Below are positions 13,738 through 53,248 of a stretch of 58,868 bases of DNA, one piece after another. The position numbers and the translations under genes are program-made. Below the pieces are notes generated by a model. That model had not been told where the DNA came from. It was given only the letters and a program-made list of their open reading frames with translations, and did not search any database. Within the stretch, counting starts at the first letter, position 1, and every line of letters begins with the position of its first letter. Origin of the DNA: a bacterium (GTDB taxonomy: Bacteria > UBP14 > UBA6098 > 4484-93); NCBI GenBank assembly GCA_021158465.1, contig JAGGUN010000042.1:1-58868 (forward strand), written 5' to 3'.

Positions 13738-13746
13738 GGCAACTCC

Positions 13747-16745: not shown

Positions 16746-16754
16746 CTTTCTCCT

Positions 16755-33891: not shown

Positions 33892-35631
33892 CTATGGAAC
33901 AGACGGCTGTTCGATAGATTTTATCCAGCCTTTTACCTCTTTTACTCTCCTTCCGCCGAGATTGAGATATTTCCTGTATTCCTCCACGGCAAGTTCGGGC
34001 TCATCTAACCTCTCGTATATTATCCCAAGGTTCAGATGGACCTCGGGGTTTTCTGGTAGTATCTTTTCTGCTTGTTTGAAAGACCTCATAGCATCGCCTA
34101 TTCTCTCGGCACCAAAGTATATGAGCCCGATGTTGAAGTAGCCCCAGAAATCCTCTCGGCTTTTGAGAATGGTATATGCGGAATCGTATTCCCCTGTGAG
34201 CTGGTAGCTAATCGCTTCCAACATGCTGTAGTCAGAGATAGCTTCTCGGTACGGTGCAAGCCTCTGGGCAATGACAGGGAGGGAGTCGTATTCACCTGCA
34301 CAATACAGACTATCAAAGAGGAGAAGGTTCTCGACAATGAGATGCAGCTTATCTTGGGGAATGCCCTTCACATCGAGTGGGAAATTCGGAATAGTATCCT
34401 CTTTCCGAGCGGATGAGAAAAAATCCTCCATATACTTTGCGATCTTATCCCTCGGGCTGATACCGAATGCCGAGTAGGCAACCAGAAAAAGGGAATCAGC
34501 CAGCTCTGGCGTTTTCACCGAATACTTTGGCATTGACCTTGTAGTTATGGATGTTTCCCCCTCCGCAATGTATTCCACCTCGAGAAGCAGATTGTAATTC
34601 CGCAGGGCAAAATCCGTGTTGAGCAGTTGTTTTGTGGTATCTGTATCGATTACGAACGCAAACTCTGGTGAGAATATCTCCTTCTCTGGTGGAAGGAATG
34701 CAGTGCCTAATATATCGGTTATCTCATCTATGTCTATGTCTCCACAGGGAATCCTCTGGCCGTCCGAAAGGACTGTTATAAAGTGAATGTTCCACACTAT
34801 AAGGTTTCTATCTCCGCGATTTATGAGATCAAGCCCGAAGGTAATAGCCCCATCCGTGTCGGGACCACGAACGGAGAAGAGTTCGGCATCGAGGACGAAT
34901 GACCCTTCGGGTGCGTGAGGAACATCGTAGAACGAGCGGTAAAGCGAGAACGCCTTGTCGAATTTACTCGGGTTTCCAGAAAGGATAGCTTCTTTCACAA
35001 ACATATTTGCCTCTAAGTTGTTGAGGAGCCTCTGGGTAAGGGGGAGTTCCTTAAACCGTTTCTTTGCTTTCTTTATTATTTTTCTGGCAGATGAAAAATC
35101 TCCTGTCTGTTCCTTTATTCGTGCCGCCAGTATAGAATAATCTGGCAGTGCATCACGAGATTTCAAAGCCTTATTGATGTATTGTTCGGCATCTTTGTTG
35201 AGTCCCAGCTTGAACAGGCAGAGCGCAATGTTGTAAAAGAGCGGAGGAGAGTATCCATCCAGTTCCCCAAATGTTGTATAGCATCCGAGGGCATAGGCAA
35301 AGTTTCCGTTGTGAAAGAGTGAATCGGCGACGGATAGGAAATCGATACCTGTATCGCCTGTGGATATCGAGAGAGTGGCGAAGCTTTTGGCGACCTCATC
35401 TGTTCTCGGTTCGAGAATGCCCTCTCTGTCAACTGTTTGTAAGAACTCACGAGCGAGTTCACGGGCAGATAGAGGGTCGGTTTTCTTTTGGAGATTGATC
35501 TGGAAATAGAGGTAATCTGTACGGCTTACCCTGGTATGAGCTGGGGATAAGGTAGCACAAACAAGTATGAACAACATTGGGGGGATAACTCCCCCCAGAG
35601 TAGCTCTCTTTAACATCGATAGTTCCCACAT
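33892..35631 (-). CDS. Exported TPR-repeat protein, last gene of the Exb-type operon
   Basis: 579 residues from an ATG directly after the previous stop; ATG 35616 (MLKRATLGGVIPPMLF) is an equally good start with a cleaner signal peptide. TPR units occur near residues 110-215 (PPLFYNIALCLFKLGLNKDAEQYINKAL) and 480-570 (WGYFNIGLIYFGAERIGDAMRSFKQAEK, PEVHLNLGIIYERLDEPELAVEEYRKYL), on either side of a beta-rich middle domain (about 240-400). It is probably a periplasmic scaffold. Its place at the end of the ExbB/ExbD operon and its TPR content recall PorW/SprE of gliding bacteria, which is inference only. Confidence 0.78.
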   Translation of the reverse strand: MWELSMLKRATLGGVIPPMLFILVCATLSPAHTRVSRTDYLYFQINLQKKTDPLSARELAREFLQTVDREGILEPRTDEVAKSFATLSISTGDTGIDFLSVADSLFHNGNFAYALGCYTTFGELDGYSPPLFYNIALCLFKLGLNKDAEQYINKALKSRDALPDYSILAARIKEQTGDFSSARKIIKKAKKRFKELPLTQRLLNNLEANMFVKEAILSGNPSKFDKAFSLYRSFYDVPHAPEGSFVLDAELFSVRGPDTDGAITFGLDLINRGDRNLIVWNIHFITVLSDGQRIPCGDIDIDEITDILGTAFLPPEKEIFSPEFAFVIDTDTTKQLLNTDFALRNYNLLLEVEYIAEGETSITTRSMPKYSVKTPELADSLFLVAYSAFGISPRDKIAKYMEDFFSSARKEDTIPNFPLDVKGIPQDKLHLIVENLLLFDSLYCAGEYDSLPVIAQRLAPYREAISDYSMLEAISYQLTGEYDSAYTILKSREDFWGYFNIGLIYFGAERIGDAMRSFKQAEKILPENPEVHLNLGIIYERLDEPELAVEEYRKYLNLGGRRVKEVKGWIKSIEQPSVP

Positions 35632-38600
35632 CTATTGTGGGATATAGGTGTTATCCCAGCTTGCCTTGTAGAACGAGACGCCGGCTTCTCCTGATACGAA
35701 GAGCGTTGCATCAGGTCCCTCTCCTATCATAGTGATTCCTCTCGGAGAAACGGCATCTGTGGCTGCCGGTGGGAGTGGAGTCATATCTGGGGCGAACATA
35801 TAGACAGTGTCGGATAAGATATCGCAGGTGAAGATGAACCCGCTTTTGCTTATATAGATGCCGACGGGATAACCACCTATTTCGTACTTCTTCACAAACT
35901 CGCCTGCTGGAGTATATACCTTTACGGAGCCGTCGCCCCAGTCGGTAACATAGATGTTACCATCCACAGGGTTGATAGCGACTCCGTATGGCTGGATAAG
36001 CTCATTACTGCCGAAGTTATCGCGGTAGCTTGTTCCCTCGAACTTGAGAATTCTCTTATTTCCGCTATCGACTATGTAGAGGAGTCCGTTCTCCTCGTCA
36101 AAGGCGACACCTGTTGGTTTATTCAGCGGAGCCTCACCATACTCTTCACCAGGGTATACCATAGCCTCTTGCATCTCGGCATTCACATCTGTTCTTATCA
36201 CACGGTTTCGCCTCGAATCGACAACGATAAGATTCTCCCCGTCGATGGCAAGCTCTGTCCCGTAGCCGAGCTTGAGAGTATCATATCCAATGGCAGATTT
36301 ATAGGAGCCTGACTTATCGATAATAGCGATCTTGTGCTGGAGATTGTCGAGGACAAACAGCTCCTCGCCGGTTGTGACAACCCCTGCACACTCCTTACCG
36401 AGATGTTCCACTTCACCCGCCTTCGCGAACCTGACTGCCTTGGCAAGAGTAATCGTCTCCGTCTCAGCTTTGGACACTTTGACCTGACCCTTCCAGGTAT
36501 AGAATCCCCTCACCTTGACTGTAACAGTGTGCCTGCCACGGGTGACATCAGCCTTGTAGACGCACCCTTCACTCTTCTTCGCCAGGGCTGTGTCACCATC
36601 GATTGCAACGCTCGCGCCAACGCAGACAGGCTCAACCAGAAGGGTGAGTGTAACATTTGTCTTTGGTGGTTTATCGGTGATCACCTTATCGAGCTCGATT
36701 ATCGGATTGAAGCTTGAGATCTTCTGCCAGAGGAATTTACATTCCTTCTTCTTTCTTGCCTGGTCAGCCTTCTTATCGACCAGGTTCTCGTATGTCATAG
36801 GTGCGTCCTTTAAGCCGGATGGGATACTTATTGGGCTTGCAGTGGACCTACAGGCGAGCTTGGCAAGCTCCAACTCAGCAGATTGGTACCACCAATCGGA
36901 GCGGTCCTTGATGACATTTTTGATCCCCATAAATATCCCTGCCTGGGTGTTGCAGTCTCCACGGGAGCAGAGTGCATAGTAGAAAGCTGCTCGAACATGT
37001 CCCTTCGCTTTTAGGGTAGAGAATATCGCCTTCGCATCCGAGTAGTTATTCTCGATAAAGTAGGACATTCCCTTCACATATTTTGCCTCGTTTGTGTAAG
37101 GCGCACGACATTGGTCAAGCACAGCCCTGGCGCGCTCAGCGATCTCAGCCTGCTCTGCGCCCTCATATAGGGTCGAGAGCTTGACGATTGTTACCCCCTT
37201 CAGGAACCGGGCAACATTCTTTGTATCCTCATCTACGCCACCGGAGGCAATGACGAGGTCAAACGCTTTCTGCGCAAAGCTCAGAGCATCAGCCCGCTCC
37301 TCCTTGGCAGTGTTTATACCCTTCTCGAGGAAGTATCTCCCCGTCTCGATGTAGGTATCTGCATCACCAGGGAGCTTGATGTCGTTCATCTCCATGGCAG
37401 CCTTAAGCATCTCGGGGTTCTTTTCACCCGACAGTGTAGTTTCAATCTGGATGAGGAAGTTCCGCAGGTTTGCGATGCTTATCTGCTTGCTGGTCAAGTA
37501 ATTGAAGTATACACCCTTTGGATTTGCGAGAGATTTGTATATTGTAGAAGCCTGGGACAGCAATGTTAGATTGTTCTCCTTGACCCCTTTCCAGAACATA
37601 CATTCAGCCTGTCGAAGCTTTGCATCTGCTTCCATGTACTTAAATCGGATTTCACCCTTCGGTAGATGGGCAAGGAAGGAGTTAAAGTTAGAGAGGGCGT
37701 TGTCGAACTCTCCAAGGGAGAAGTATGCCCATCCAAGCCAGTATTTCCCTTCAGGGAATTTGGAGGATACACGGCTGTATGTTGTAGAGACGCTGTTTAC
37801 GCTTCCCTCGAAGATAAGGAACTGTAGGAGTTGGGCATCTGCGATTCTCAGGGCAGCGAAATCACCATAGCTCTTACTGCCTTTCAACTCCAGGAGGGCA
37901 GAGAGGGCGTCGTTTACCGAGGATTTATCGCCTATAGAACCGAGTGCTACCCTGTAGCTGTTGATGTTTAGCTTGGCGAGCCTCTGGATGTCCTTGTATC
38001 CGCTCGATTTCGGGACAACCTTCTGCATCGTTTCGATAGCGGATGTAAGTTCCTCTTCTATGGCGTCGGGGCGGGCTTTTTTCGAGAGTTTTGCTTCCTT
38101 CCATCCTTTGTCATCCACCTGCATATATAGCCTGGCGATCATATAATGGAGCTCAGCCTCTAAGAACTGGGATGCGATGGCGATTATCTCCGTCGATGCC
38201 TTCTCGAGTGCACTGAACTCGTCGAGGGCTTCGGAAAACATCGTCTTAGCATCGTGGAACCCGGACTTGTTGTCCATCTTGAGGGAGCCGATCTTGTATT
38301 TACAGAATGCCTTGAGAAACTTTGCGTTCTCAATGATGTCGATTAGGTCCTCTTCTCTCCCCTCCAGTTGCTCGTCGGAGAGAAAATCCTCAAAGTCCCC
38401 GATTGCACCTTCGAGGAATCTTATCTGGCTTCTCGTCCCGCGTTCTGTCTGGTACTGACGGAAGGAGCAAAGTCCCCTCATATACTTTGAGCGGAGGTAT
38501 TCTTCGCCGAGTAGGTCTATCGCTTTGAACCCCTGGATAGCCTTTTGGAAATCTTCTGATGCCTCGGAAAACAGCTCCTTCTGTTTCTTTATCCTGCCGA

Positions 38601-38853
38601 GGTAGTACTTTGCTGTGGCAAGGTAATAGTTGGAGTAAGCCTTGTCCTCCTGCGGTATCACCCCCTCCAATATGGTGGCAAAGGAGGTGGCTGCTGACTC
38701 GAACTTCTCGGTAGCTTCCTCCATCTTGTCTTCTTGGTAGAACCCTATGCCTGCATTCAGGACATCGATAGCGTCCTTCATTCCCACTTGGGAGAGGGCT
38801 CCTATACTGCAGAGAAGTACCAGGAAGATTGCTATTCCTACCCTTTTTAACAT
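35632..38853 (-). CDS. Exported TPR, PEGA-like and six-bladed NHL-type beta-propeller protein
   Basis: 1073 residues. Signal peptide 1-21; then about 650 residues of helical TPR-like repeats (EDKMEEATEKFESAA, YYLATAKYYLGRIKK, YWLGWAYFSLGEFDNALSNF). A PEGA/regulatory-like beta domain lies near 735-800 (ASVAIDGDTALAKKS, GRHTVTVKVRGFYTW). The C-terminal 260 residues are an NHL-type propeller (VVDSRRNRVIRTD, LLYIVDSGNKRILKF, NIYVTDWGDGSVKVY). The order TPR, small beta domain, propeller is close to that of PorE from the T9SS, though PorE ends in an OmpA domain which is absent here. It follows the TonB-like lipoprotein gene by 29 bases. Confidence 0.82.
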   Translation of the reverse strand: MLKRVGIAIFLVLLCSIGALSQVGMKDAIDVLNAGIGFYQEDKMEEATEKFESAATSFATILEGVIPQEDKAYSNYYLATAKYYLGRIKKQKELFSEASEDFQKAIQGFKAIDLLGEEYLRSKYMRGLCSFRQYQTERGTRSQIRFLEGAIGDFEDFLSDEQLEGREEDLIDIIENAKFLKAFCKYKIGSLKMDNKSGFHDAKTMFSEALDEFSALEKASTEIIAIASQFLEAELHYMIARLYMQVDDKGWKEAKLSKKARPDAIEEELTSAIETMQKVVPKSSGYKDIQRLAKLNINSYRVALGSIGDKSSVNDALSALLELKGSKSYGDFAALRIADAQLLQFLIFEGSVNSVSTTYSRVSSKFPEGKYWLGWAYFSLGEFDNALSNFNSFLAHLPKGEIRFKYMEADAKLRQAECMFWKGVKENNLTLLSQASTIYKSLANPKGVYFNYLTSKQISIANLRNFLIQIETTLSGEKNPEMLKAAMEMNDIKLPGDADTYIETGRYFLEKGINTAKEERADALSFAQKAFDLVIASGGVDEDTKNVARFLKGVTIVKLSTLYEGAEQAEIAERARAVLDQCRAPYTNEAKYVKGMSYFIENNYSDAKAIFSTLKAKGHVRAAFYYALCSRGDCNTQAGIFMGIKNVIKDRSDWWYQSAELELAKLACRSTASPISIPSGLKDAPMTYENLVDKKADQARKKKECKFLWQKISSFNPIIELDKVITDKPPKTNVTLTLLVEPVCVGASVAIDGDTALAKKSEGCVYKADVTRGRHTVTVKVRGFYTWKGQVKVSKAETETITLAKAVRFAKAGEVEHLGKECAGVVTTGEELFVLDNLQHKIAIIDKSGSYKSAIGYDTLKLGYGTELAIDGENLIVVDSRRNRVIRTDVNAEMQEAMVYPGEEYGEAPLNKPTGVAFDEENGLLYIVDSGNKRILKFEGTSYRDNFGSNELIQPYGVAINPVDGNIYVTDWGDGSVKVYTPAGEFVKKYEIGGYPVGIYISKSGFIFTCDILSDTVYMFAPDMTPLPPAATDAVSPRGITMIGEGPDATLFVSGEAGVSFYKASWDNTYIPQ

Positions 38854-38882
38854 AGCCTCATCACCCCTTGTTTGCTGTTTTG

Positions 38883-39428
38883 TTAGATCGAGATCTTGCC
38901 GGCGACTATCGAGAAACCGTTTATCTTGACAAGGGAGCGGGTTGGACCGATAGTTGGCTCCGGTCTACCTGGCTCCTGTGGATTAAGCCTGATGCTCGAT
39001 GCGTCGACAGTCGCCTTCCTCTTGGGAACATCTATCTTTACCCTCATAAGTCCTCTGCCACAGTTGTCGTATCCCCAGGTCCTTATGGCGTTGAGGACAT
39101 ATGTGTCGAACTTGGCGTTCCCGGACCTCTGAGATATGTATGCCGACATAACAGCGACATCCACAAGGTATTCAACGATGCACGGTTTGTCCGGGATACC
39201 TATATCTCGCTGTATCTTATCGAAATCTATTGCTTCCGAATAGTTCACTACAGCAAAGACAGGCGGTGGTGGTGGCACATAACGGATAGTGATGAGTCCG
39301 TATCCAGGCTTCAGGAGCAGGTCTTTGTCTTCTATCTCTGGTGGCAGGTCTATAATTGTTTCACCCGTCCCGCCGCAGGAAAGGAGGAAAGGTATCAACA
39401 TCAGGCAGATAAAAAGAATATCCCTCAT
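38883..39428 (-). CDS. Lipoprotein with TonB-like C-terminal domain
   Basis: 181 residues. The signal peptide ends in a lipobox (FLLSC, Cys18). A proline run (VPPPPP) lies near residue 50. The C-terminal part (about 80-150) has the TonB-box-binding fold pattern: VEYLVDVAVMSAYIS, SGNAKFDTYVLNAIRTWGY and MRVKIDVP. Normal TonB is anchored by an inner-membrane helix; here lipid replaces it. It overlaps the second ExbD by four bases, which supports a TonB role in this motor. Assignment rests on pattern and context. Confidence 0.72.
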   Translation of the reverse strand: MRDILFICLMLIPFLLSCGGTGETIIDLPPEIEDKDLLLKPGYGLITIRYVPPPPPVFAVVNYSEAIDFDKIQRDIGIPDKPCIVEYLVDVAVMSAYISQRSGNAKFDTYVLNAIRTWGYDNCGRGLMRVKIDVPKRKATVDASSIRLNPQEPGRPEPTIGPTRSLVKINGFSIVAGKISI

Positions 39429-39979
39429 AATCTTCTCACCTTCTTCTTTATAATCTTTGCCTTCAGGTCTGCCAGTGTTCCGCCGACCCAGCCGTATTTA
39501 GTGATGCCCAGTTCCTGTAGCCAGCTTGCTATCTTTACAACCTCTTCGTAAGGTATCTTTCTGTCAGCACGAATGAGAACCTTTGGCTTTGTGTATTTGA
39601 GCTGGTCGAGTAAGACCCTCAGCCCGGTCTCGTCGTAAAGGACGTTGTATACCCTTGCACGGTTGCGGAATAGTGGGCTTGTGGTGAAATTTCTACCTGT
39701 TTTGTCGAGAAACTCGTAGAACTCACCAGAGCTATCGTTCCCCTGGAGAACATAGTAATCCATTCCTCCTTCGGGTGACCTCTGAAGCTGGATTACCAGT
39801 GAAACCTCCGTCCCCCCTGGTATTGGGGTTGCAAGCGTTACCCCTCCCTCTACCTGTGGAGCACTCTTCACCGATGGCATAATCGACATCGTTACGAGGA
39901 AGAATATCATCAACTGGAATGTTATATCGACCATAGAGGTTAACGGCATCTTCTCCAGTGCCTCAACCCTTCTTTTCAT
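39425..39979 (-). CDS. ExbD/TolR family proton-channel subunit (second copy)
   Basis: 184 residues. One membrane helix (about 14-36) has the family motif LTSMVDITFQLMIFFLV with the proton-carrying aspartate D18. The periplasmic part ends with IRADRKIPYEEVVKIASWLQELGI, the typical ExbD fold. The C-terminus is long and basic (KAKIIKKKVRRL). It lies three bases after the first ExbD gene, so both copies probably form one heteromeric or paired complex with the ExbB upstream. Confidence 0.93.
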   Translation of the reverse strand: MKRRVEALEKMPLTSMVDITFQLMIFFLVTMSIMPSVKSAPQVEGGVTLATPIPGGTEVSLVIQLQRSPEGGMDYYVLQGNDSSGEFYEFLDKTGRNFTTSPLFRNRARVYNVLYDETGLRVLLDQLKYTKPKVLIRADRKIPYEEVVKIASWLQELGITKYGWVGGTLADLKAKIIKKKVRRL

Positions 39980-39982
39980 CCC

Positions 39983-40519
39983 TTATTCTCCTTTCTTCCA
40001 CGACAGGCGAAACTTAACCGCTTCCACCGAGTCCTCCCTGGCGTAGTTCATTACATCGAGTATGAAACCGAACTGGGTATCCTTGTGAGCTCTTATCTCT
40101 ACAGCTGGCATCTCTTCTCCCATATAGAAGATATCATCCAGTCTCCGCTTAAACCTCTTTTTAGTCTCCTTCAGTGGCCACGGACCGTGGGTGTGCAAGG
40201 TATCCTTTTTAGCCTCCTCGATGGATGGGACCATCTGATCAAGGATATAACCTACCAGTTTCCCTGCGTACTTTCCTTCCTTCTCAATCTCTGTATGAAG
40301 AAGGAGCCCTGCGGGAAGATTTTCAACCTCCGAGAGCTTCTCCATCTCAGGGAGTGCCGGCAGATTCTCTTCCATCTCTCCCTTCACCCTCTGAGTAGCC
40401 CTTGTCTCCATTGTTCCCAGAGACATTGTTACCATAAAGAATATCAAAAGTTGAAATATGATATCGATCAAGGAAGTCCATTCCATCTCCGGTAGAGGTT
40501 CTTCTATCCTTTGTGCCAT
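39983..40519 (-). CDS. ExbD/TolR family proton-channel subunit (first copy)
   Basis: 178 residues with the helix WTSLIDIIFQLLIFFMVTM and proton-carrying D19. The periplasmic part has an insert rich in Glu/Lys (about 75-130) before the conserved AVEIRAHKDTQFGFILDVMNYARE end. It lies 12 bases after exbB. Duplicated ExbD genes next to a single ExbB are common in FCB bacteria. Confidence 0.93.
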   Translation of the reverse strand: MAQRIEEPLPEMEWTSLIDIIFQLLIFFMVTMSLGTMETRATQRVKGEMEENLPALPEMEKLSEVENLPAGLLLHTEIEKEGKYAGKLVGYILDQMVPSIEEAKKDTLHTHGPWPLKETKKRFKRRLDDIFYMGEEMPAVEIRAHKDTQFGFILDVMNYAREDSVEAVKFRLSWKKGE

Positions 40520-40531
40520 CGATTCTCCCGT

Positions 40532-41878
40532 TTAAGCCTTGTTGGTAATATCTATAAGTATGTTCTCCCAGCATGAATATATCCAGTCGATCTTGCCGCG
40601 ATAATAGTAGTATATAAGCATAAACGGAATCCCGATAAGGAGCCCTGTGATCGTGGTAATAAGTGCGATCTGAATACCCTTCGCCAGCTGGGGGACAATC
40701 TTCGTCGTCTGAATATCAGGATTTTTCTCAATCTGTTCCTGTATTTGCATAAAAGCCATCCTGATGCCGACCACTGTCCCGAATAGTCCGAGCATCGGCT
40801 CGACCGAACCGACAGCCCATAGGGCTGTAATAGACCAGCCCTTAAGAGCATCTATCTCCTTGACGGATGTATTTTCCGTTGCTCTGTCAACCTCCTGCGA
40901 TGTCCACCATTCGTTCGTATTGTTCCGAATATTCTCGAGTGCAGCGAGAAATATCCTTGTTATCGGGTACTCATCCACGCGCTTGGGATACTTCATTCCG
41001 GGAACACCGTTTTTGCAGACAGCAATTGCCTTATCGATATTGGGGAGTCCGATCTCGAGCCACATCTTCTTCTTTGTGATTTCTACCTCGTCTCGGGTCG
41101 CTTTCAGAAATTCCTCGGTAGACTTGAACTTATCCACATTTGTCCCCATGGATTTCAGAGCTGCTATCCAGTATTTGGCGACTTCCTTCATAAATATATT
41201 TCCGTTTTCGCCAAGCCCTGTTTTTCCTTCTCTATCGATAGGTAAGGCTCCATACCAGAAGCTGCATTTGTTCGGCGGGAAGATATTTGCAAGGCGGAGG
41301 CGCCACCAGGTTGTCGGTATAACCACGAGAAGCCCAAATAGAGCAAGTATGTACATAGGTATAAGTATCCGTGGACCGCCCATCTTGGTAAAGGCAACGA
41401 ACCGCGAGAATATATTCTTTTTCCCTTTTTCTCCTGCTGCGCTGATAGCCCTTTTTGCCACCCTTACATGGGCGGAATCGCTCCTCGAAGGGAGTGTGGC
41501 GTTCACAGGCTCAACCCGAATCCAGTAGTCTACATCAAAATCGAGTCCCATTAGCATGTAGTTCATTTCCGCGGTCTCAGGGCTTTCCTTAACGAGCTGG
41601 GTAAGAGCGGAATCAGCATAGACCTTGACCTTGTAAGTCAATGACTCGTCCCTGAACTCCTTGGGAGATGTGTACTTCCCGGTCTTCTTGTAGAAAGAAC
41701 TCTTGTAAAGGATCCAGGAGACATTCAGGGTCAATTTCCCGCCTTCCTTGCCCTCCTTTATGTTGTCTATGTGCACAAGCAAGGAATCGGGCATCTTCTG
41801 TGCAAGAACGAGCTCTGCTCCGCTGAGCAGGAAAATTGCTACAACAGACACCGCGACCAGAAGCAAGAAGTTCCTCAT
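40532..41878 (-). CDS. ExbB/TolQ/MotA-family proton channel with an N-terminal exported FN3-like domain
   Basis: 448 residues, about twice the normal ExbB length. A cleavable-type signal peptide (1-26) is followed by an FN3-like beta domain (about 30-145; KLTLNVSWILYKSS, LMGLDFDVDYWIRVEPVNA). The ExbB part begins with a membrane helix (about 170-192; ILIPMYILALFGLLVV), then a cytoplasmic helical domain, then two helices with the family motifs VEPMLGLFGTVVGI and ALITTITGLLIGIPF. The pentameric channel would use proton flow to drive the ExbD/TonB-like partners encoded next. The FN3 domain would face the periplasm, where it could contact the surface machinery. Placement in the operon is 17 bases after the PorV-TPR gene. 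Confidence 0.9.
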   Translation of the reverse strand: MRNFLLLVAVSVVAIFLLSGAELVLAQKMPDSLLVHIDNIKEGKEGGKLTLNVSWILYKSSFYKKTGKYTSPKEFRDESLTYKVKVYADSALTQLVKESPETAEMNYMLMGLDFDVDYWIRVEPVNATLPSRSDSAHVRVAKRAISAAGEKGKKNIFSRFVAFTKMGGPRILIPMYILALFGLLVVIPTTWWRLRLANIFPPNKCSFWYGALPIDREGKTGLGENGNIFMKEVAKYWIAALKSMGTNVDKFKSTEEFLKATRDEVEITKKKMWLEIGLPNIDKAIAVCKNGVPGMKYPKRVDEYPITRIFLAALENIRNNTNEWWTSQEVDRATENTSVKEIDALKGWSITALWAVGSVEPMLGLFGTVVGIRMAFMQIQEQIEKNPDIQTTKIVPQLAKGIQIALITTITGLLIGIPFMLIYYYYRGKIDWIYSCWENILIDITNKA

Positions 41879-41895
41879 CGTTTCTCCTTTTCTTT

Positions 41896-43719: not shown

Positions 43720-43744
43720 ATCTATACCCCTTAGGTTTTTGTGG

Positions 43745-46700
43745 CTACTCTGTTCTCTTCCAGACAGCTATCTTATGCCTGTAAACTTTGTTCCCTATCT
43801 TCACGACACAGATATATCCACCGTTGCCGACGGTCTTGCCTTTGTCATTCTTGCCGTCCCATACAATGTCGGTCAAACGCTCAGAGAGGGTTATCTCTTT
43901 TGACCAAACAAGGTTCCCGAATGCATCGAAGAGCTTCACATCTGCCTTCTCTCCGGGAGAACCTGCTTTTATCCTTATTGTTGCTGTTTCGGTGTTCGGG
44001 TCAAACGGATTGGGAAAGTTGGATACCTCTGCCTTCTCCACATCGACAATGATCTCGTCTGTCACAGTTCCGGATGGGTTCTCGGCTCTGTCAAGCACAC
44101 GGGCATATATCGTCCTCTTGTCCCCCAATGTTCCTCCAGATTCCGGTATATATTTTTGTTCCTGGCAGGTGTAGTAAACTGTTGGGTCGTCGAGGGTGAA
44201 AGGCAGAATCTGGCGGTTCACAGAGAAGTCCTCGCTCTCCGAGACGAGCAATGATGCAACCTCTCCTGGTGGGACATCTGCTGCGCCTTCAACGACTATC
44301 TTCACACGGTAGTCATCTGACCAGTTCTCGTCATCGGTTGTGGCGTCCATAACCCGGATTCCATCGACTGTTGGCGGGATCGTATCGAGAATTATCGTTG
44401 CGCTGTCTATCCCGCTTGGATAGGCACCTTGCATTATCTGGCAATACACTGTCTTCGGCTCGTTTACTGGAGTGGCAAAGGTATATGTTGAGTCTGAGTA
44501 ACTGAACGGTACCCATCTGACACCTCTGAAGCGCCTATCCTCGCTTATCCTCATCGAGTCAGGAACGGCATCGAGGTCGCTGAATATCACAACCCTTACC
44601 GTCTGGTTGTTCGTGAACTCTGAATCGGTTGTATCAACCATATCGAAGAGTACAAAATTGTATGAGAGCGTCTCGGGGACAACCCACATCTTCAGCGTGT
44701 CGATATTCGATGGGTTCCCGGCGGAGTCGACGGCAAGCGCATAGATGTGGTATAATCTATCAGGTGTTACAAGGTCGTGCAGTCCGAACGGAACATTAAC
44801 TATTTCACTTCCTGCCCAGGTTGAGTCAGCACGGATAAGGACGGTATCGGGCAGCTCATCTGCCCAGAAATATACCCTCGATATAAAGCCGGGAGCAGGT
44901 CTGTCGAGCATACGGATCTCGACGGTCGGTGGATTCACCGTTACAATGGAGTCGATGCTCTCACCATCCTGCGTGAAGTCTATAACCGGCGGAAGCATAT
45001 CAAGCTTCATATCAGCAACGATGAGTGAGTTGAAGTCAAGATTGTTCCCCCAGTTGTCCGCTGAGTCTCTCGCTGCAATCCCGACAGGACGAGACACTTC
45101 GGTTGTATCGTACATAAGAATGAGGTTTATTGTATCGATTGCAGGGTCATAGTCGAACGAGAGGGTATCACCGTTCACGGTGAACTCCAGTTCCTGATGC
45201 CAGAGGGAATCCTCGATACTTCCCCAGAAGCGGAGCGAGTCAACGCCGGAGAGGTTATCCTCGATATCGCCGAACACTGCCCAGATATAAGGCGAATTCG
45301 ACCATGAAGTGTCGGCAAAGAATATATCAGGGAAATGCTCAACGGTAGTCGTATCGACACAGACAAACCCTGATGCAAGCTCAGGCGCGGTCTTGTCCAG
45401 CACAATACTTGCACTCTCAGGTGGGGATACTTCTCCTGATACCGATTTTACCCAACCGTATACAAGCTTCTCTCCTTCGGAGACATCGGAGAATGTGTAT
45501 GTAGTCTCCCCGTCCGCAGGGAAAGGAATCCACCACTCGATCGTGTCTATATCCTCGACGAAGCTCTCAGAAAGGTAATAATACCCAGGTGGAGGAGCGG
45601 AAGGTGGAATGTTGAACTGCACCTCTACAACATTGTTGTTGGCATAGATTGAGTCCGGTACAGGAGAATCGTAATCGAACAGTGTGAACTTGAAGCGAGC
45701 GCCTCTTAGATAAACAATGGATGAGGAATCGAGCAGACTTATGTTTCCTGCTCTATCCTTCAGTGCGGCATACACTATCTTTTCTCCAGGTGTTGCGGTG
45801 TCCTCGAGTGTATAATCGAGGCTCGTCGAGTAATCACGCCAGATGTCGGACAGCTCGGCAGGGTAAGCGGACCTTCTCTCGAATATCGCAATGTACGCAG
45901 GAGTAAGCTCTCCGTCCTCGCCAGCTATCTCGACGATGATGTCAGGTGAATCGGTGTAGTCGTACGAGCCACTTGTTGCATCCTTCAGCTGCACCGATAT
46001 AATGGATGGGTCGTGGGTATCGAGTGTAATGATCGATGTAGCTCCCTCATCGAACGGGCTTGACCAGTTCCCCGCGGAGTCCTGTACCCAGCCCTGGACA
46101 TACTTGGCTCCGTCACCTGCTGGTAGGTCAAAATGGACGAACGGGGAATACTCTCCCTCCTCCTCGGTAGACTCACAGCGAAGTTTATACCAATAAATTC
46201 CGGAACCTGCAATGTCTGTCGGGTCGTTGAAATACACCTTTATATGCTCATCGTTTGTCCAGCCAGCATCTGCAACCTCGGATGTGTCGGCGTATGAGAA
46301 TTCGGTCGTTACATCCCTTGTCGATATGCTCGGAAGGCGGGGATTAGTCAGGTCGAGGAATATACTCAGGCTATCCCAGGCGGTTGGATGAAGCGGGTCG
46401 CCGGTATCAAGACCGCGAACGCTTATCCACCTGTCACGATTGTCTGCCTCGGGATGCGATATCTCATACTCAAATACTATCGTTGTCTCGGGAAGGGTTA
46501 TATACGGCAGGCGTACCCTCACCGTATCGGCTGAGCGGTCATCGGTGATGAACATAGAGTCGATGTCGTTCCCGTATCTTATGGTGAGTTCCACGAGCAC
46601 GCTGTCTGTGAAGCGACCTGTGGTGTCGGGACCGTCTATATCCCGAATTCCCAGGAGAGCTATTTCCTTATGGTCGGCAGGGTCATAATAGACGGAATCA

Positions 46701-48418
46701 ACGACGATATTGGACAGACTGCCTGCGCTATCCTTCACGACACAGTAGATTTTAAGCCAGCTGTTTGGAGTTGAGGCATCGTCGAAATCGAATGTTGTTG
46801 TGAGTGAGAAATCGAGCCAGGCGTCATCCGGGATCGAGCCGATAGAGGTTGAATCCTCGGTTAGATACATCTTGTAAGGTGCGCCAACGGTTCCATCGGG
46901 GACTATGTTGACGAGGTTTGCAGCGGTGAAAGCGGTTGTATCCGCCCCAAATGGGCTGGTAACGGAAACGGATAGCAATGCTGGTGGCTGGGTGTCGAGG
47001 TATATTGCTGAATGGTGAACATCGCTCATATTCCCTGCAGAATCCTTTATAGCCGTGTAGGTATCCTTTAGCCCATCACCCTCGGGGAGCGTGTAGGGAT
47101 AGTCCACATCCCCTATGTAGTCGAGTCGAGCTACATTCTCCGTGAGAGCCTCATCTGTTGCAATTATGACAGAATCTATACCGGAGGCGAAGTACTCGCC
47201 GTTTATCGGGTCGCAGGGGTCGACAAGGTCGATATGTATCTCCTCGGTGTTGGTATACCCTGGCTCAGCCACAGCCTCCGTCCAGGACGGGGTGTCGGTC
47301 ATATCTTGTGCTACGGTATGCATCATCTCGGGAGCTCTCGTATCCACATAGAAGGATGCGTCATAATCGGCAATCAACTCAATGTTCCCTGCCGAATCCA
47401 CAGCCATCGTGTATATACGATACTCTCCGTCCCCTCTCGGCGGGACGAAACGCATAGAATCAGAAACCTCTGTTGCACCCTCGTAACGCTTGATATTGTA
47501 AACCGTGTCTTCCTCGCCATGGTAACTGTACATAAGCTTCAGTGTGTCGATGCCGGACGGAAGTGAACCGGTATCTGAGCCTGTGTAGTATATAGGGATG
47601 TCGATATCGGTGTAGTACAGCGGGACGGAGTCTGCTATAACAGAGGATACCGGTTCCACCGTGTCAAACCGAGTCCAGAGCTGGGCCTCATCCAGCTCAG
47701 GGTCGGGTTCCCACTCATTGCCGAGTGAATCCGTGCCGGCAAGGAAGAACTCGTAGTAAGTGTCACCGGAAATATCCGAGGAGTTGAAGACAATAAAGCC
47801 TTCAATAGGTGAGGTAACAGACGGGACATCGTATGTAGCATAGTAATTCCAGTCTTCTCCTGTGGTGAGACGGTAGTAAAGCTTGACGGTGGAGACACCG
47901 GAGCAGACGGCATCCTCAGCTGTAAAGTTTATAGTAAGGGATGCCCTGTTTGTCCATACCGAGATCTCATCTGGAGAGACCAGAGGTGGCGAGTTATCCT
48001 GTGTGGAGCAGACGGTGTCCGACCAGGGGCTAAAGCCATATTCTCCGGTGCCTGTGACATATCTGTATCGGATGCGGTAGCAGTACTCGACGCCATCACG
48101 GAGTGGGTCATCTGCTGGCACTCCGTCGAGCAGATCCACCCCTACCTCGAAGCAGTTGTCGGTAACATCGGAAGCGGGTATGGGCCATATGGAGAAGTTC
48201 GGATCGGTCGAATCGGGGAATTCTCCGGTAGATGAGACCTGTAGCTCATAAGCACTTATCGTTGGATGCCCCTCGGGAATTGTCCAACAGATAGTGTTGG
48301 TTGTTCCCTCTGTGTACTCAGGCTCCGGCAGTAGTGTCGGAGCAGGTTGAGCAGAAACCGATACACTAACTGCCAGAGCAATAAGCGTAACCAAAGGTAT
48401 TCCTCTTGTTATCTTCAT
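43745..48418 (-). CDS. Giant secreted Ig-like repeat protein (1557 aa) with sorting domain
   Basis: Signal peptide 1-23. An N-terminal module with the phrase PEYTEGTTNTICW is followed by about a dozen bacterial Ig-like repeats of roughly 120 residues. Each opens with a 'LDTxPP' or 'LDxTxP' phrase, carries 'DATS/TxxxYTDS', and ends with 'VKDSAGN/DRAGN' (for example LDTHDPSIISVQLKDATSG, LDTIPPTVDGIRVMDATTD, GWVQDSAGNWSSP). The end is a FlgD-Ig-type sorting module: NFPNPFDPNTE, then WDGKNDKGKTVGNGGYI. It is probably a long stalk-like surface protein. The gene is flanked by the PorV-TPR gene (25 bases) and by the second giant gene (15 bases). Confidence 0.9.
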   Translation of the reverse strand: MKITRGIPLVTLIALAVSVSVSAQPAPTLLPEPEYTEGTTNTICWTIPEGHPTISAYELQVSSTGEFPDSTDPNFSIWPIPASDVTDNCFEVGVDLLDGVPADDPLRDGVEYCYRIRYRYVTGTGEYGFSPWSDTVCSTQDNSPPLVSPDEISVWTNRASLTINFTAEDAVCSGVSTVKLYYRLTTGEDWNYYATYDVPSVTSPIEGFIVFNSSDISGDTYYEFFLAGTDSLGNEWEPDPELDEAQLWTRFDTVEPVSSVIADSVPLYYTDIDIPIYYTGSDTGSLPSGIDTLKLMYSYHGEEDTVYNIKRYEGATEVSDSMRFVPPRGDGEYRIYTMAVDSAGNIELIADYDASFYVDTRAPEMMHTVAQDMTDTPSWTEAVAEPGYTNTEEIHIDLVDPCDPINGEYFASGIDSVIIATDEALTENVARLDYIGDVDYPYTLPEGDGLKDTYTAIKDSAGNMSDVHHSAIYLDTQPPALLSVSVTSPFGADTTAFTAANLVNIVPDGTVGAPYKMYLTEDSTSIGSIPDDAWLDFSLTTTFDFDDASTPNSWLKIYCVVKDSAGSLSNIVVDSVYYDPADHKEIALLGIRDIDGPDTTGRFTDSVLVELTIRYGNDIDSMFITDDRSADTVRVRLPYITLPETTIVFEYEISHPEADNRDRWISVRGLDTGDPLHPTAWDSLSIFLDLTNPRLPSISTRDVTTEFSYADTSEVADAGWTNDEHIKVYFNDPTDIAGSGIYWYKLRCESTEEEGEYSPFVHFDLPAGDGAKYVQGWVQDSAGNWSSPFDEGATSIITLDTHDPSIISVQLKDATSGSYDYTDSPDIIVEIAGEDGELTPAYIAIFERRSAYPAELSDIWRDYSTSLDYTLEDTATPGEKIVYAALKDRAGNISLLDSSSIVYLRGARFKFTLFDYDSPVPDSIYANNNVVEVQFNIPPSAPPPGYYYLSESFVEDIDTIEWWIPFPADGETTYTFSDVSEGEKLVYGWVKSVSGEVSPPESASIVLDKTAPELASGFVCVDTTTVEHFPDIFFADTSWSNSPYIWAVFGDIEDNLSGVDSLRFWGSIEDSLWHQELEFTVNGDTLSFDYDPAIDTINLILMYDTTEVSRPVGIAARDSADNWGNNLDFNSLIVADMKLDMLPPVIDFTQDGESIDSIVTVNPPTVEIRMLDRPAPGFISRVYFWADELPDTVLIRADSTWAGSEIVNVPFGLHDLVTPDRLYHIYALAVDSAGNPSNIDTLKMWVVPETLSYNFVLFDMVDTTDSEFTNNQTVRVVIFSDLDAVPDSMRISEDRRFRGVRWVPFSYSDSTYTFATPVNEPKTVYCQIMQGAYPSGIDSATIILDTIPPTVDGIRVMDATTDDENWSDDYRVKIVVEGAADVPPGEVASLLVSESEDFSVNRQILPFTLDDPTVYYTCQEQKYIPESGGTLGDKRTIYARVLDRAENPSGTVTDEIIVDVEKAEVSNFPNPFDPNTETATIRIKAGSPGEKADVKLFDAFGNLVWSKEITLSERLTDIVWDGKNDKGKTVGNGGYICVVKIGNKVYRHKIAVWKRTE

Positions 48419-48433
48419 TCTACCCCTCTTTAT

Positions 48434-51400
48434 TTATTTGACAAGTACCATCTTCCTGGTTTCGCTAATGTCATCAGCTACTACTCTATAAAGGTAGACA
48501 CCGCTTCCCACGGGTGCCCCGAGGTCGTCGCAACCGTCCCAAATGACCCAATTCTCGCCCGGAGGAAATACTGACGAAACGAGATTTCTGATGAGCTTGC
48601 CGTCGATTGTGTATATCGATATTAGGACCATCTTCTCCTCTGGCAGAACGAAGCCGAGCCTCGTCTCGAGGTTGAACGGATTGGGAACATTCCCCAAAAC
48701 CGTCATACGACGGGGAAGAGCCTTCTTGTAATAAATCGCTATCTCCCCTGAAAGCGAAGCAGAGGTTATGTCCCTCATATCGTATCTGTTCCCTTCGGCA
48801 TCCTCGAGGATAAATTGCCCGTTGATATCAGGCAGGGACCAAGATACCTGCATCCTGTGAGGAAGGGCAATCTTGAATGTTGCTTCATTACCGGTTTCTG
48901 CAATATCCCTTAGGAGTCCACCGTTGAATGAAACATATTGCATCCCAGGAGTAGCGGGGGGCATGGGTAGGTCAAACCTATCGCCGTTTTCTGCCATACC
49001 GAACTCGAGCCTTGTTCCGCTCTGCTCGGTACCAAGCAAGATCCCTGCAAGCCATTCTGGTGAAAAGGTCTCGAACTGCTTATCCTCGGCAGGTAAGATA
49101 ATATCTCCCTCTTCTCTGGCAAGGACCCAGTACCCGTACCCCGGGTGAGCAGAGGTATGTGTATCGTATCTTCCCTCCCAAGGGTTATACCAGAAAAGAT
49201 ATGGTGAGATGAGTAGCCCGGCAGGGTCGGTGGAGAAACCTGACTCCTCGGATATCGAGCCTACGAGGTTCCAACCACGATACAAATGACGCGTCATAGA
49301 GTGGGAGGGCATTCCTTTTACCCAGTATGTTCTGCTTTCAAGAGAGAGAACAAAATATCCCCTTCCCGTTTCAAGTATATCCTCGGAAACAAAGATTCTG
49401 TCCACGGGGTCCCACCAGAAGCAGGTGTCTGCCCCTGGGAAGAGGATGTTGAAATGTCTGTTCCTTGGATACACAGGAACGGAGACCATATTCCAGCCCT
49501 CTGCCAGGTCGATCCTCACGGAGTCCATCTCGACCCCCTCCAGTTCGTAATAGTATGGGTGGGAGAATCCGCTCTCATTCCCTGACAGGTCGATGGCAAC
49601 AAGTGAGAAGTACATATCGGGTGAGCCAGAAAATATCTCGATCGGAAGGACCATTCTTGTTGCGGCGACAGGTTCTTCCTGATAGAATAGGAGCGGGTCA
49701 CCAAGCCATATCCAGCTCTCTTCCTGGGCATAATATAGTGAATACCTGTTTCCGAAGGGCGAACCGTAACCAGGAGGTGTCGTATCCTGAAGCTCGATTA
49801 TAATGTTCTCCCTTAGAGGAGAAATATACACAGTGTCGATAACTGGAACTGCAGGAGGTGTTCCATCCCAGAGTGAGATTTGGGTACCTGTTGAGTTCTC
49901 CTGACCGAAGCTGTCAACGGCAGATACCGTATAGTAGTTGTCATGGAAATAGTTACCCGGGTTCGGCGAGTAATCTGTCCAGACAAATGGGCAGGAAGAT
50001 GCAGGGAAGCTTGCAACCTCCTCGCCGAGGGTTCCTGGTGTATCTGAACGGTAAACTATGTAACGGGATACGCCTATTCCGTAGTCGAACGATGGTTTCC
50101 ATCCGATCGTCAGGTTGACTGTCTCGACACTGTCTGCCTGAGAATAGATTGTGTCGATGTGAACAGCATTAGGAGGGGAGTTGTCGAGCCTGGTGTGGAC
50201 AACATTCGACCACTCAGATACATTGCCGAGGGCGTCGATCCCCTGAACCCTGATATAGTAGCGCGTCTCCATAAGTCCGCTGATTGTAAATGTCAGTGTA
50301 TCGATGTCCTCATCGTCGAAATCCTCAGGGTTGGAGAAGACTGGATCGTGGACCGAGCGCCAGATGCTCGATGTCGCTGTATGGAAATCGGGGAAAACAT
50401 CGTGTTCTATAATTATGGAATCGGCGTCGCCATGTGATGTATCGATGATTGTCAAGGTAATGCTGTTCCCTGGTGTCCAAAGCGGTAGAGCATCAAGTAC
50501 GAAAGCAGGACAACTGTTATCAACACAAGCTTCCGCATAGTCCCTCGGGTAGGGAGATAACCTACCAAGCCTGTCCTCAGGCACGACGGTGTAGATATAG
50601 CATTCGCCATCTGTGAGGTCAGCATCTATGTAGTGGAAGAACCTTTCTTCTCCAGTTGTTGGATAAAAGTAGCGAACGAGGTAAATATCATCTTCAGGAC
50701 CGATTGTCTCGAGTGCGTCCAGTTCATCTGGGGTCACACGATATAGCCTGTATCTCATAAGTCCGACACCGCAGTCCATCGAATCAGGGTGATCCGCCCA
50801 GAACTCAATCTCAATCCTGCCATCATCAAGGGGCTCAGCGTGTATGGAATCTATCGCCTTTGGACCCTCCAGGTCGAACCTTGTAAAGACAGGCACAGAC
50901 CAGGAAGAGGTCAACCAACCGACATCCTGAGCCTGAGCTTCATAACCGTACCTCTCACAGTTCGACCCATAGAATGTGTATTCTGGAAGATCACTCCAGC
51001 CAGTGGAGTCGATATATACTCTCGTGCTGTCGTCGTAAACGATAAACCTGCGGAACCTATAAAGCCTCGTGTAATACCCACAGCTCGGGCATTCATCGAG
51101 GTTCACCCGAACGGTTACGAACGGTGTAGTAGTTATAGAGTCAATAGATAGAAGATTTGCGCAGGGGGGGAAACACGGATAATGACGAGTACACTCTCTG
51201 ATAACAATATTCCCTCTGTTGGGGAAGTGTCCTACCCTGTCGACAGGAACAACGGTGTAATAGTAGCAGGTATTACTGTCGAGGTCGATTATGTGGTCTT
51301 CCGGACCATCATCTGTGAAGAAGAATCTCTCTCTGCCGTCATCGGTAACGGTGGCGACAAGGTAGTCCCTATCATCGATTATGTTGAGCTCGCTTTCTAT

Positions 51401-51904
51401 CTCCGAACGGTAAATTCTGTAGTACCCAACACCGCTTGCGGAATCGTGCGTCCTGCGCCACTGAATCTGTATCTGATTCCCTGGTAGTGCGGATGCATCG
51501 ACACACTCGACAGGGTCCGGGTCATAGATATCCTGCATTGTAATCTGTGGACTCGACCAGGCAGTTGTATCTCCAGCAGAATTCATTCCCTGAACATAGT
51601 AGGCGTAAATCTCGGCATCAAGCATATCGTGGAATATGTAATCTATCGTGGGGAACCAGTCAGTAACCTCGTTTAACTCGGGTCTGCCAGATATTGCTTC
51701 CCTCTTGAAACGGAACATAACATCATCGGCTGGCGTGATGGTCGTATCCACCACAAGATGAACGGATGTTCCCGCGGTGTACGCTGGGAGTGGCTCAAGC
51801 TCAGCTACAAAGGGTGGTGGTGGAGAGTCCGCAAAAACACCACTTGTCAAGGCGAGTATAAAAACTCCCAGGAACCCAAAGGAATATAGTATTTTATTCA
51901 CCAT
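48434..51904 (-). CDS. Giant secreted FN3-repeat protein (1156 aa) with sorting domain
   Basis: Signal peptide 1-25. Like its neighbour it begins with a module containing PAYTAGTSVHLVV. Several FN3-type repeats follow, many containing 'YRIYRSE/YIVYRSD' and 'YYTVVPVDRVG/YYTVSAVDSFG' phrases. Near residue 780 comes a GWNMVSVPVYP domain with CFWWDPVDR and GRGYFVLS, a module often seen before FCB sorting domains. The end is VPNPFNLETRL ... WDGCDDLGAPVGSGVYLYRV. It is the first gene of the operon, downstream of a promoter at 51956-51984. The function is likely adhesion or a surface layer role, unknown in detail. Confidence 0.9.
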   Translation of the reverse strand: MVNKILYSFGFLGVFILALTSGVFADSPPPPFVAELEPLPAYTAGTSVHLVVDTTITPADDVMFRFKREAISGRPELNEVTDWFPTIDYIFHDMLDAEIYAYYVQGMNSAGDTTAWSSPQITMQDIYDPDPVECVDASALPGNQIQIQWRRTHDSASGVGYYRIYRSEIESELNIIDDRDYLVATVTDDGRERFFFTDDGPEDHIIDLDSNTCYYYTVVPVDRVGHFPNRGNIVIRECTRHYPCFPPCANLLSIDSITTTPFVTVRVNLDECPSCGYYTRLYRFRRFIVYDDSTRVYIDSTGWSDLPEYTFYGSNCERYGYEAQAQDVGWLTSSWSVPVFTRFDLEGPKAIDSIHAEPLDDGRIEIEFWADHPDSMDCGVGLMRYRLYRVTPDELDALETIGPEDDIYLVRYFYPTTGEERFFHYIDADLTDGECYIYTVVPEDRLGRLSPYPRDYAEACVDNSCPAFVLDALPLWTPGNSITLTIIDTSHGDADSIIIEHDVFPDFHTATSSIWRSVHDPVFSNPEDFDDEDIDTLTFTISGLMETRYYIRVQGIDALGNVSEWSNVVHTRLDNSPPNAVHIDTIYSQADSVETVNLTIGWKPSFDYGIGVSRYIVYRSDTPGTLGEEVASFPASSCPFVWTDYSPNPGNYFHDNYYTVSAVDSFGQENSTGTQISLWDGTPPAVPVIDTVYISPLRENIIIELQDTTPPGYGSPFGNRYSLYYAQEESWIWLGDPLLFYQEEPVAATRMVLPIEIFSGSPDMYFSLVAIDLSGNESGFSHPYYYELEGVEMDSVRIDLAEGWNMVSVPVYPRNRHFNILFPGADTCFWWDPVDRIFVSEDILETGRGYFVLSLESRTYWVKGMPSHSMTRHLYRGWNLVGSISEESGFSTDPAGLLISPYLFWYNPWEGRYDTHTSAHPGYGYWVLAREEGDIILPAEDKQFETFSPEWLAGILLGTEQSGTRLEFGMAENGDRFDLPMPPATPGMQYVSFNGGLLRDIAETGNEATFKIALPHRMQVSWSLPDINGQFILEDAEGNRYDMRDITSASLSGEIAIYYKKALPRRMTVLGNVPNPFNLETRLGFVLPEEKMVLISIYTIDGKLIRNLVSSVFPPGENWVIWDGCDDLGAPVGSGVYLYRVVADDISETRKMVLVK

Positions 51905-51955
51905 CGAGGATTCCCCCTTCTTGGTTTATTTATATTCCCAGATACAAGGTTTCTC

Positions 51956-51984
51956 AATAAATCAACTTTCCAGTTCAAAGTCAA
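51956..51984 (-). promoter_or_regulatory. Probable promoter of the giant-protein/Exb operon
   Basis: TTGACT (51984-51979), 17 bases, TTTATT (51961-51956), in the 90-base gap after the LytM gene. The predicted start near 51949 leaves a 45-base leader with AAGGGGGAATCCTCG before the ATG. The -10 matches only in part. Confidence 0.5.
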
Positions 51985-51994
51985 GAAAAAAGTT

Positions 51995-53248
51995 CTATAT
52001 CACCTCATCAAAGAGCATTTTCGCAAGGCGCGTTTTTGTTGCAAAGTCATCACGGTATTTCCTCGGTATAGGTGGTCCAGGCGGTGCAACATACTTTAGA
52101 GGGTTGACATTCTTGCCGTTGATCCTTATCCGATAGTCAAGATGGGGACCGGTCGCATACCCTGTGTGCCCAACGAAGCCGATGACCTGCCCCTGATTAA
52201 CCCTTTTCCCTCTTTTTATCCCCCTGGCAAACCTGGACAGATGCCCGTAGCAGGTGACGATCTTGCCTCTGTTGTGACTTATCTCAATGTAGTTTCCAAA
52301 CCCCTTCTTCCAGCCAGCAAATATAACCTTGCCGCTTCCTGCGGCAACGACTGGAGTTCCCTCCGGAGCCGCCAGGTCCACCCCGAGATGCGGGCGATAG
52401 ACCTTGAATATCGGATGAAGTCTCCGGTGAGAAAAATAGGAAGAAATCCTCGAGTAGTTCAATGGAGATCTCAAGAGTGTGCGCTTCAGAGCCTGCCCAT
52501 TGCTGTTATAATACCCCTTCTTCCCAGAGGGGTCCTCGTAGTAAAACGCCCAGAACGCTCTGTTCTCTGTTATATACTCTGCTGCAACGATATTCCCAAT
52601 CCTGACAGGTTTGTTCTTGTATAGATACTCCTCATACAGCACCTTGAACTTCTGACCGTTGCGTGTCTCAGTCAGAAAGTCTATGTCGTATGAGAAGACA
52701 TCGGAAAGCTTAGCGACAAGAACAGGTGGAATCTTCTGGTTTATCATCGACTCCCAGAGTGTATTTTTTACCTCTCCCTTCAGGAACCTCAGGCATTTTC
52801 CGAGTGGGACGCTGTCTCTCCTGGCGATATAAGTGTCACCTACTCTCTTCACATTGAACCCGTTCCATGGATGCCTCTCGTATCGGAATTCTTTGACCTT
52901 TCCGTTATGAGAGAAACGAGCGAAGAATCTGTCTCCCGGGCGGAGTGAGCGCATGTCGAGCAGGTTGGACAGTGCCGAGACTATCTCAAACGCATCCTTG
53001 TAGGGTAAACCAGAAAGGATGAGAGCCTCCGAAAGTGTTTCACCTTCCTGAATTGAGCCCGACACCTCGCAGGTAAGGGAGAAACGGTCATCGGAGGAGA
53101 TAACGGTTCTCCCAGAGAGGCGGGATACATAGTTCACGCAGATAGCTATATATATGGTGAGTGCGAGGAGGAAGTATAGCCTGATCAAGAGGTTATTCCT
53201 TGACCTCGATAACCTGGAATTTAAACAGTTGCGCATCACCATCCTCAA
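51995..53248 (-). CDS. LytM/M23 peptidase with OapA/LysM-like N-terminal domain (NlpD/ShyA type)
   Basis: Up to 417 residues. The longest start is a TTG at 53248; ATG 53236 (after GAGG) or TTG 53188, just after the previous stop with AAGGA, are more plausible, so the start is open. A membrane anchor (LLIRLYFLLALTIYIAICV) is followed by an OapA/LysM-like domain (SIQEGETLSEALILSG, LDMRSLRPGDRF), a central domain, and the M23 domain (about 275-400) with HLGVDLAAPEGTPVVAAG, CYGHLSRF and GPHLDYRI. The zinc residues are intact. It is a peptidoglycan endopeptidase of the type needed for cell growth in didermic bacteria. It overlaps the MEMO-AMMECR1 gene. Confidence 0.9.
   Translation of the reverse strand: MRMVMRNCLNSRLSRSRNNLLIRLYFLLALTIYIAICVNYVSRLSGRTVISSDDRFSLTCEVSGSIQEGETLSEALILSGLPYKDAFEIVSALSNLLDMRSLRPGDRFFARFSHNGKVKEFRYERHPWNGFNVKRVGDTYIARRDSVPLGKCLRFLKGEVKNTLWESMINQKIPPVLVAKLSDVFSYDIDFLTETRNGQKFKVLYEEYLYKNKPVRIGNIVAAEYITENRAFWAFYYEDPSGKKGYYNSNGQALKRTLLRSPLNYSRISSYFSHRRLHPIFKVYRPHLGVDLAAPEGTPVVAAGSGKVIFAGWKKGFGNYIEISHNRGKIVTCYGHLSRFARGIKRGKRVNQGQVIGFVGHTGYATGPHLDYRIRINGKNVNPLKYVAPPGPPIPRKYRDDFATKTRLAKMLFDEVI

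Follow-up and report, generated by a model that had tools for sequence, protein, structure and literature searches.

A conserved operon grouping an ExbB/ExbD motor with a PorV-type barrel and two giant sorting-tail proteins

Gene content and conservation of the operon

The window examined here, a 58,868-nucleotide stretch of bacterial DNA that lies on contig C27 of genome G000 (2.04 Mb, 97.6% complete), carries nine open reading frames (ORFs) on the minus strand between positions 33892 and 51904 (Table 1). As the initial annotation of this DNA had described, the genes are tightly packed, with gaps of 0 to 29 bp and a single 4-bp overlap. They encode two giant surface proteins (giant1 and giant2), a PorV-family outer-membrane barrel with a TPR tail (PorV/TPR), an ExbB/TolQ-family protein, two ExbDs, a TonB-C-like lipoprotein, a protein combining TPR, PEGA and NHL-type domains (TPR-PEGA-NHL), and a terminal TPR protein. 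The parts belong to known families. What is new is their combination, its strict conservation and its setting in genomes without recognizable GldLM, the motor that powers the type IX secretion system (T9SS) in Bacteroidota, the group on which that system was defined.

Table 1. Features of the operon, the genes upstream of it and an extra gene found in some relatives (aa, amino acids).
Feature	Position	Strand	Remarks
Memo-AMMECR1 fusion	53193..54650	-	PF01871 100 bits, PF01875 52 bits; upstream of M23 gene
M23 peptidoglycan endopeptidase with Csd3_N2 domain	51995..53248	-	PF01551 113 bits; directly upstream of giant1
giant1, 1156 aa	48434..51904	-	signal peptide, fn3/Ig repeats, C-terminal T9SS type A-like sorting tail
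giant2, 1557 aa	43745..48418	-	Ig/OmpL47-type repeats, C-terminal sorting tail
PorV-family outer-membrane barrel with C-terminal TPR domain, 607 aa	41896..43719	-	NF033709
ExbB/TolQ-family motor protein, 448 aa	40532..41878	-	PF01618 (MotA_ExbB) 70 bits
ExbD1, 178 aa	39983..40519	-	PF02472 48 bits
ExbD2, 184 aa	39425..39979	-	PF02472 43 bits; distinct paralog
TonB-C-like lipoprotein, 181 aa	38883..39428	-	lipobox Cys18, proline-rich stretch, TonB-like C-terminal domain
TPR-PEGA-NHL protein, 1073 aa	35632..38853	-	signal peptide; TPR to ~720, PEGA 737-803, propeller 820-1073
Terminal TPR protein, 579 aa	33892..35631	-	variable accessory
Extra gene in family f2, 180-186 aa	L035:9226-9783, L036:8478-9020, L037:3866-4426, L039:9204-9755		

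The phylum comprises 17 genomes, and we read the flanks of 14 other loci from four families. In all 14, the order giant1-giant2-PorV/TPR-ExbB-ExbD1-ExbD2-lipoprotein-TPR/PEGA/NHL of an eight-gene core is identical and is broken only at contig ends. Because the order is kept in every readable locus, chance clustering was rejected. A lack of conserved gene order among relatives had been named beforehand as a possible refutation of the initial annotation, and the order instead proved to be kept across the phylum. Full-length orthologs of ExbB (46-92% identity) and the full-length PorV/TPR form are each present in 15 of the 17 genomes. The terminal TPR gene is the least conserved; five relatives carry a match of 16-54 bits at a similar position, and in the others the gene is absent or unrelated.

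The conserved cluster also reaches further upstream than the nine genes, since an M23 gene and a Memo-AMMECR1 gene precede giant1 in all 10 loci that extend in this direction. A gap of 80-250 bp 5′ of giant1 recurs in most relatives. A consensus scan of positions 51850-52100 returned no sigma-70 site, and so the probable promoter that had been placed at 51956-51984 was not recovered.

The two giants carry the PNPFN/PNPFD tails ascribed to them initially, and orthologs of both match the sorting-tail family TIGR04183 (10/10 for giant1 and 8/12 for giant2). Giant2 itself exceeds the cut-offs for both FlgD_ig (28 bits) and TIGR04183 (23.6 bits, cut-off 23), and fn3 is matched by giant1. Orthologs of giant1, 30-38% identical, occur in all loci with room for the gene, and giant2 retains 36-44% full-length identity in 11 other genomes, which is unusually high for a surface protein. 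Mean column identity is 45% for giant1 and 54% for giant2, compared with 53-65% for the other core proteins. Conservation of the giants thus comes close to that of the machine proteins, which suits structural parts better than ordinary cargo. In the nearest relative, G001, giant2 is split into two ORFs (L046:82-4646) through an assembly error or a frameshift.

Membership of the barrel in the PorV/PorQ family, as originally annotated, is supported by a score of 100.1 bits against the PorV_fam model (cut-off 90), and the protein continues into a C-terminal TPR domain. Outside the genus, it is 42-50% identical to its orthologs.

The ExbB/ExbD assignment likewise held, with matches above cut-off to both family models and with conserved pore threonines and membrane aspartates. 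Residues T368, T408 and T409 of ExbB are invariant among 15 sequences, and the membrane residues Asp19 of ExbD1 and Asp18 of ExbD2 are also invariant; we take these to be the proton-path positions of ExbB/TolQ. In the ExbB protein, an additional N-terminal secreted domain of the Ig/fn3-like type precedes the first membrane helix, and there is also a long cytoplasmic segment. In family f2, four genomes carry an extra gene, just before ExbB, that duplicates this N-terminal domain and the first helix.

For the lipoprotein, whose lipobox Cys18 aligns in 14/14 orthologs, the proposed likeness to TonB depends on the method of comparison. The single-sequence match is weak (E 0.098), whereas a profile-profile comparison of the C-terminal half with TonB C-termini supports the relationship (hhalign E 1.9e-5, score 32.8, with a best score of 17.6 among 50 shuffled decoys). 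A fold search with the low-confidence model of the protein ranked the TonB C-terminal structures 1u07 and 2gsk second and third; a HMMER search against PDB gave nothing useful.

The TPR-PEGA-NHL protein is predicted to be periplasmic and to end in a six-bladed NHL-type propeller, on the basis of an AlphaFold2 model with a predicted local distance difference test (pLDDT) score of 87.6 and a fold search that matched NHL propellers. Its initial description as PorE-like is borne out in architecture, because TPR precedes a propeller in a periplasmic protein as it does in the PorE family (NF052230). Here, however, a PEGA domain is present, and the carboxypeptidase-regulatory and OmpA domains of PorE are not. 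No match to NF052230 was obtained for the window protein or 12 orthologs, and profile and fold searches against PDB returned only generic propellers, with no PorE or SprE among them.

T9SS, Ton and Tol-Pal genes in the same genomes

A search for SprA, PorU and GldL/GldM, as suggested by the initial annotation, had a divided outcome. SprA (TIGR04189) is above cut-off in 15 of the 17 genomes, including a 1943-aa frame at G000:C31:23972-29578. C25 peptidases, which are candidates for PorU, occur in 17/17 genomes, with nine matches in G000. Matches to TIGR04183 number 61-150 per genome. In G000 there are 127 of these in 2.04 Mb, which makes the proportion of T9SS-type cargo unusually high. In contrast, GldL, searched with two models, and GldM (TIGR03513, TIGR03517, PF22827) gave nothing above noise, and GldN (TIGR03523) gave no match, in any of the 17 genomes. 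The same NCBIfam models returned 195 bits for GldL, 363 for GldM and 105 for GldN at a Bacteroidota-type locus used as a positive control. Thus, in agreement with the initial proposal, no intact canonical gldKLMN set that might handle the giants was detected in the phylum, as judged from GldL, GldM and GldN. The proposal that the operon is self-contained fell, since other contigs encode the SprA translocon and the C25 peptidases.

These genomes resemble those with the Bacteroidota T9SS in combining SprA, C25 peptidases, PorV-family barrels and sorting-tail cargo, and in the expectation that a proton-driven motor of the 5:2 family drives an outer-membrane process. They differ in lacking recognizable GldL, GldM and GldN; what the operon has instead is an ExbB/ExbD motor of the canonical kind, in which ExbD is present twice, along with the TonB-C-like lipoprotein.

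Elsewhere in G000 there are an ordinary TonB-ExbB-ExbD operon and, on contig C5, a full Tol-Pal operon. With these tasks assigned to separate loci, a third ExbBD motor is not needed for them and is free for another. For this reason, the motor in the window appears to be something other than the ordinary Ton or Tol motor. It shares with the Ton system its motor family, the invariant proton-path residues and a TonB-C-like domain, but it is distinguished by two unlike ExbDs, the extra secreted domain of ExbB, a lipoprotein in place of a membrane-anchored TonB and the lack of a receptor gene.

That the operon is nevertheless an ordinary TonB-dependent uptake cluster, an outcome that had been raised at the start and was not borne out, strikes us as very improbable. 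ExbB, ExbD and a TonB-C-like protein do occur together, and in three loci of other SprA-positive lineages (L145, L146 and L174) a PorV-ExbB-ExbD-TonB arrangement lies behind candidate receptors, proteins that end in what resembles an outer-membrane barrel. However, no TonB-dependent receptor is found among the operon families (receptors elsewhere in the genome were not searched for), and the TonB-like protein, being a lipoprotein, lacks a membrane anchor. We rejected this candidate given the separate Ton operon and the lack of a receptor gene in the operon. Among the closest known systems, the Fibrobacter succinogenes ExbB-ExbD-ExbD-TonB operon FSU_2400-2403 (PMC6851124) likewise combines two ExbDs with ExbB and TonB, and its host carries T9SS tails, but it is read as serving TonB-dependent uptake and no PorV or giants are reported there, a distinction drawn from the description and not from sequence.

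The Tol-Pal system offers a different parallel, since there, too, a TolQ/TolR-type motor is accompanied by TPR and beta-propeller proteins. The operon might serve outer-membrane tethering or envelope remodeling with a surface layer, with the TPR region acting like CpoB, the propeller like TolB and the lipoprotein like TonB or TolA. PorE has been interpreted as a fusion of CpoB, TolB and Pal to which a TolA/TonB-like protein may transmit force (PMC12204202). The TPR part of the TPR-PEGA-NHL protein matches YbgF/CpoB models, and the linked M23 endopeptidase also fits such a role. We consider this role quite unlikely nonetheless, as the operon has no OmpA/Pal domain and no TolB or Pal, its propeller is of the NHL type and is fused to TPR and PEGA, a PorV barrel and giants are present, and the genome has its own complete Tol-Pal operon.

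Candidate functions and related clusters

The reading that we favor, and regard as probable, is that the operon encodes a dedicated trans-envelope machine that uses the proton-motive force to act on the PorV/TPR barrel and two T9SS-exported giants. ExbB and the two unlike ExbDs would form a 5:2-type inner-membrane motor that pulls or turns a periplasmic chain composed of the TonB-C-like lipoprotein and the TPR-PEGA-NHL protein. This chain would pass force to the TPR tail of the barrel, which would lie in the periplasm. The barrel, in turn, might carry, mature or anchor the giants after their export by the separately encoded T9SS (SprA and C25 peptidases), while the linked M23 endopeptidase may open peptidoglycan for assembly. 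The sequences themselves establish the gene content, order and conservation, the invariant motor residues, the TonB-C similarity, the occurrence of SprA, C25 peptidases and sorting tails, and the lack of recognizable GldLMN. These findings speak for the machine, as do the separate Ton and Tol-Pal loci, the high conservation of the giants and the related clusters in G094 and G164 described below. We infer this force path, a direct contact with PorV/TPR and the kind of work, which could be either energized export and assembly or movement of the giants. The published interpretation of PorE cited above (PMC12204202) offers a close parallel to such a force path.

Several observations weigh against such a machine. 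At 178-184 aa, the ExbDs are too short to bridge the periplasm alone, and the lipoprotein, with no transmembrane or other N-terminal anchor seen, is poorly placed to take up force from ExbD; its AlphaFold2 model is also poor (pLDDT 43). Giant1 itself, at 22.4 bits, falls slightly below the 23-bit cut-off of TIGR04183. Finally, the assemblies of G007 (83% complete) and G015 (92%) contain no full-length ExbB or PorV/TPR, owing to loss or an assembly gap, and yet C25 peptidases and sorting tails persist in both, as does SprA in G015.

A broader role is possible, though we hold it only tentatively: the operon could be the general T9SS energizer of the phylum, in which ExbB/ExbD/ExbD and the TonB-like and TPR-propeller connectors act on SprA much as GldKLMN does, with the giants as structural parts. 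Consistent with this role, G000 has SprA, C25 peptidases and some 127 sorting tails but no GldL, GldM or GldN, even though the models work on the control locus. In a wider survey of 193 genomes spread over bacteria, SprA was above cut-off in 55 genomes and GldL_N in only 1. One locus, L179 (G077), has a full GldKLMN set although SprA was not matched in that genome, and so SprA absence calls may be imperfect. Of the ExbB loci examined, 11/30 in SprA-positive genomes versus 0/20 in SprA-negative ones had PorV or a large TPR-containing protein as a neighbor (p = 0.0015). This contrast is confounded by relatedness among the genomes, and the loci were not a random sample, so that it counts as support and not proof. 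For PorV alone near ExbB, the corresponding figures (5/30 versus 0/20, p = 0.067) are not significant. The dedicated giants and dedicated PorV point instead to a specialized task, the genomes carry many other PorV paralogs, G015 has the secretion components without the core, and other ExbBD arrangements occur in most SprA-positive phyla.

Distant versions of the cluster are recognizable in two other lineages. In G094, the order is giant-giant-PorV/TPR-ExbB (three copies)-ExbD-ExbD, followed by a 258-aa protein, a large protein and then another ExbB. This one cluster (L115:10772-15266, L116:489-2087) thus holds four long ExbB paralogs (461-532 aa) and two ExbDs. In G164, the order is PorV/TPR-ExbB-ExbD-TonB-TPR-TPR-PEGA/NHL. 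The fact that TPR and PEGA-NHL are separate proteins in G164 and are fused in the phylum studied here suggests that they act together. In three further lineages, PorV-(GWxTD or similar)-ExbB-ExbD-TonB lies behind a protein with a tail-like C-terminus.

A surface-motility motor must also be considered, in which the giants would be adhesins on the PorV/TPR barrel dragged by ExbBDD, comparable to SprB on SprF driven by GldLM. In Flavobacterium, outer-membrane barrels, including the adhesin-bearing SprF, have a physical link to the GldK track, which moves (PMC12635249), and the operon offers a dedicated barrel with a periplasmic tail, a motor of its own and a pair of giant surface proteins with Ig/fn3 domains. 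No track protein was recognized, although no search aimed at GldJ or SprB/SprF was made, and the giants are strongly conserved (above all giant2, by its mean column identity) whereas adhesins usually diverge. For these reasons we view motility as unlikely.

Beyond the dedicated machine that we favor, the cluster bears on the T9SS more widely. Earlier profile surveys placed this system in Bacteroidetes only (PMC4793230), and a 2024 study indicated that it may occur in other phyla of the Fibrobacteres-Chlorobi-Bacteroidetes (FCB) group (PMC11285876). Our literature search found no description of ExbB/ExbD tied to PorV or powering a T9SS, and none of a T9SS in Zixibacteria or of PorV with ExbB and TPR in candidate phyla. 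With SprA above cut-off in many phyla and the GldL model matched in a single genome of the survey, the power source of these secretion systems is in question, and a conserved operon in which ExbB/ExbD is joined with PorV and sorting-tail proteins allows a direct test. There is a real chance that this operon or its relatives are the missing T9SS energizer outside Bacteroidota. The fuller proposal is again tentative: outside Bacteroidota, dedicated ExbB/ExbD motors may take the place of GldLM in energizing the T9SS and may act on PorV-type barrels by way of TonB-like and TPR-propeller connectors, with this operon as the clearest case and one conserved throughout its phylum. If so, the Ton/Tol motor family would gain a role in outer-membrane protein export or surface assembly.

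Upstream genes and the rest of the window

The M23 protein encoded directly upstream of giant1 is 41-46% identical in relatives. Memo and AMMECR1 proteins are usually cytoplasmic. The Memo-AMMECR1 fusion in the window has an N-terminal hydrophobic, signal-like segment, and an exported version is odd.

A second PorV/giant pair is present on the plus strand at 3840-10827. It consists of a 496-aa PorV barrel with an OmpA-type peptidoglycan-binding domain, with no gene between it and a following 1824-aa giant with a tail-like C-terminus. Beyond this pair, a series of sorting-tail proteins is encoded on the minus strand at 10857-19892, one of which (16755-19892) has an M36-like metallopeptidase match.

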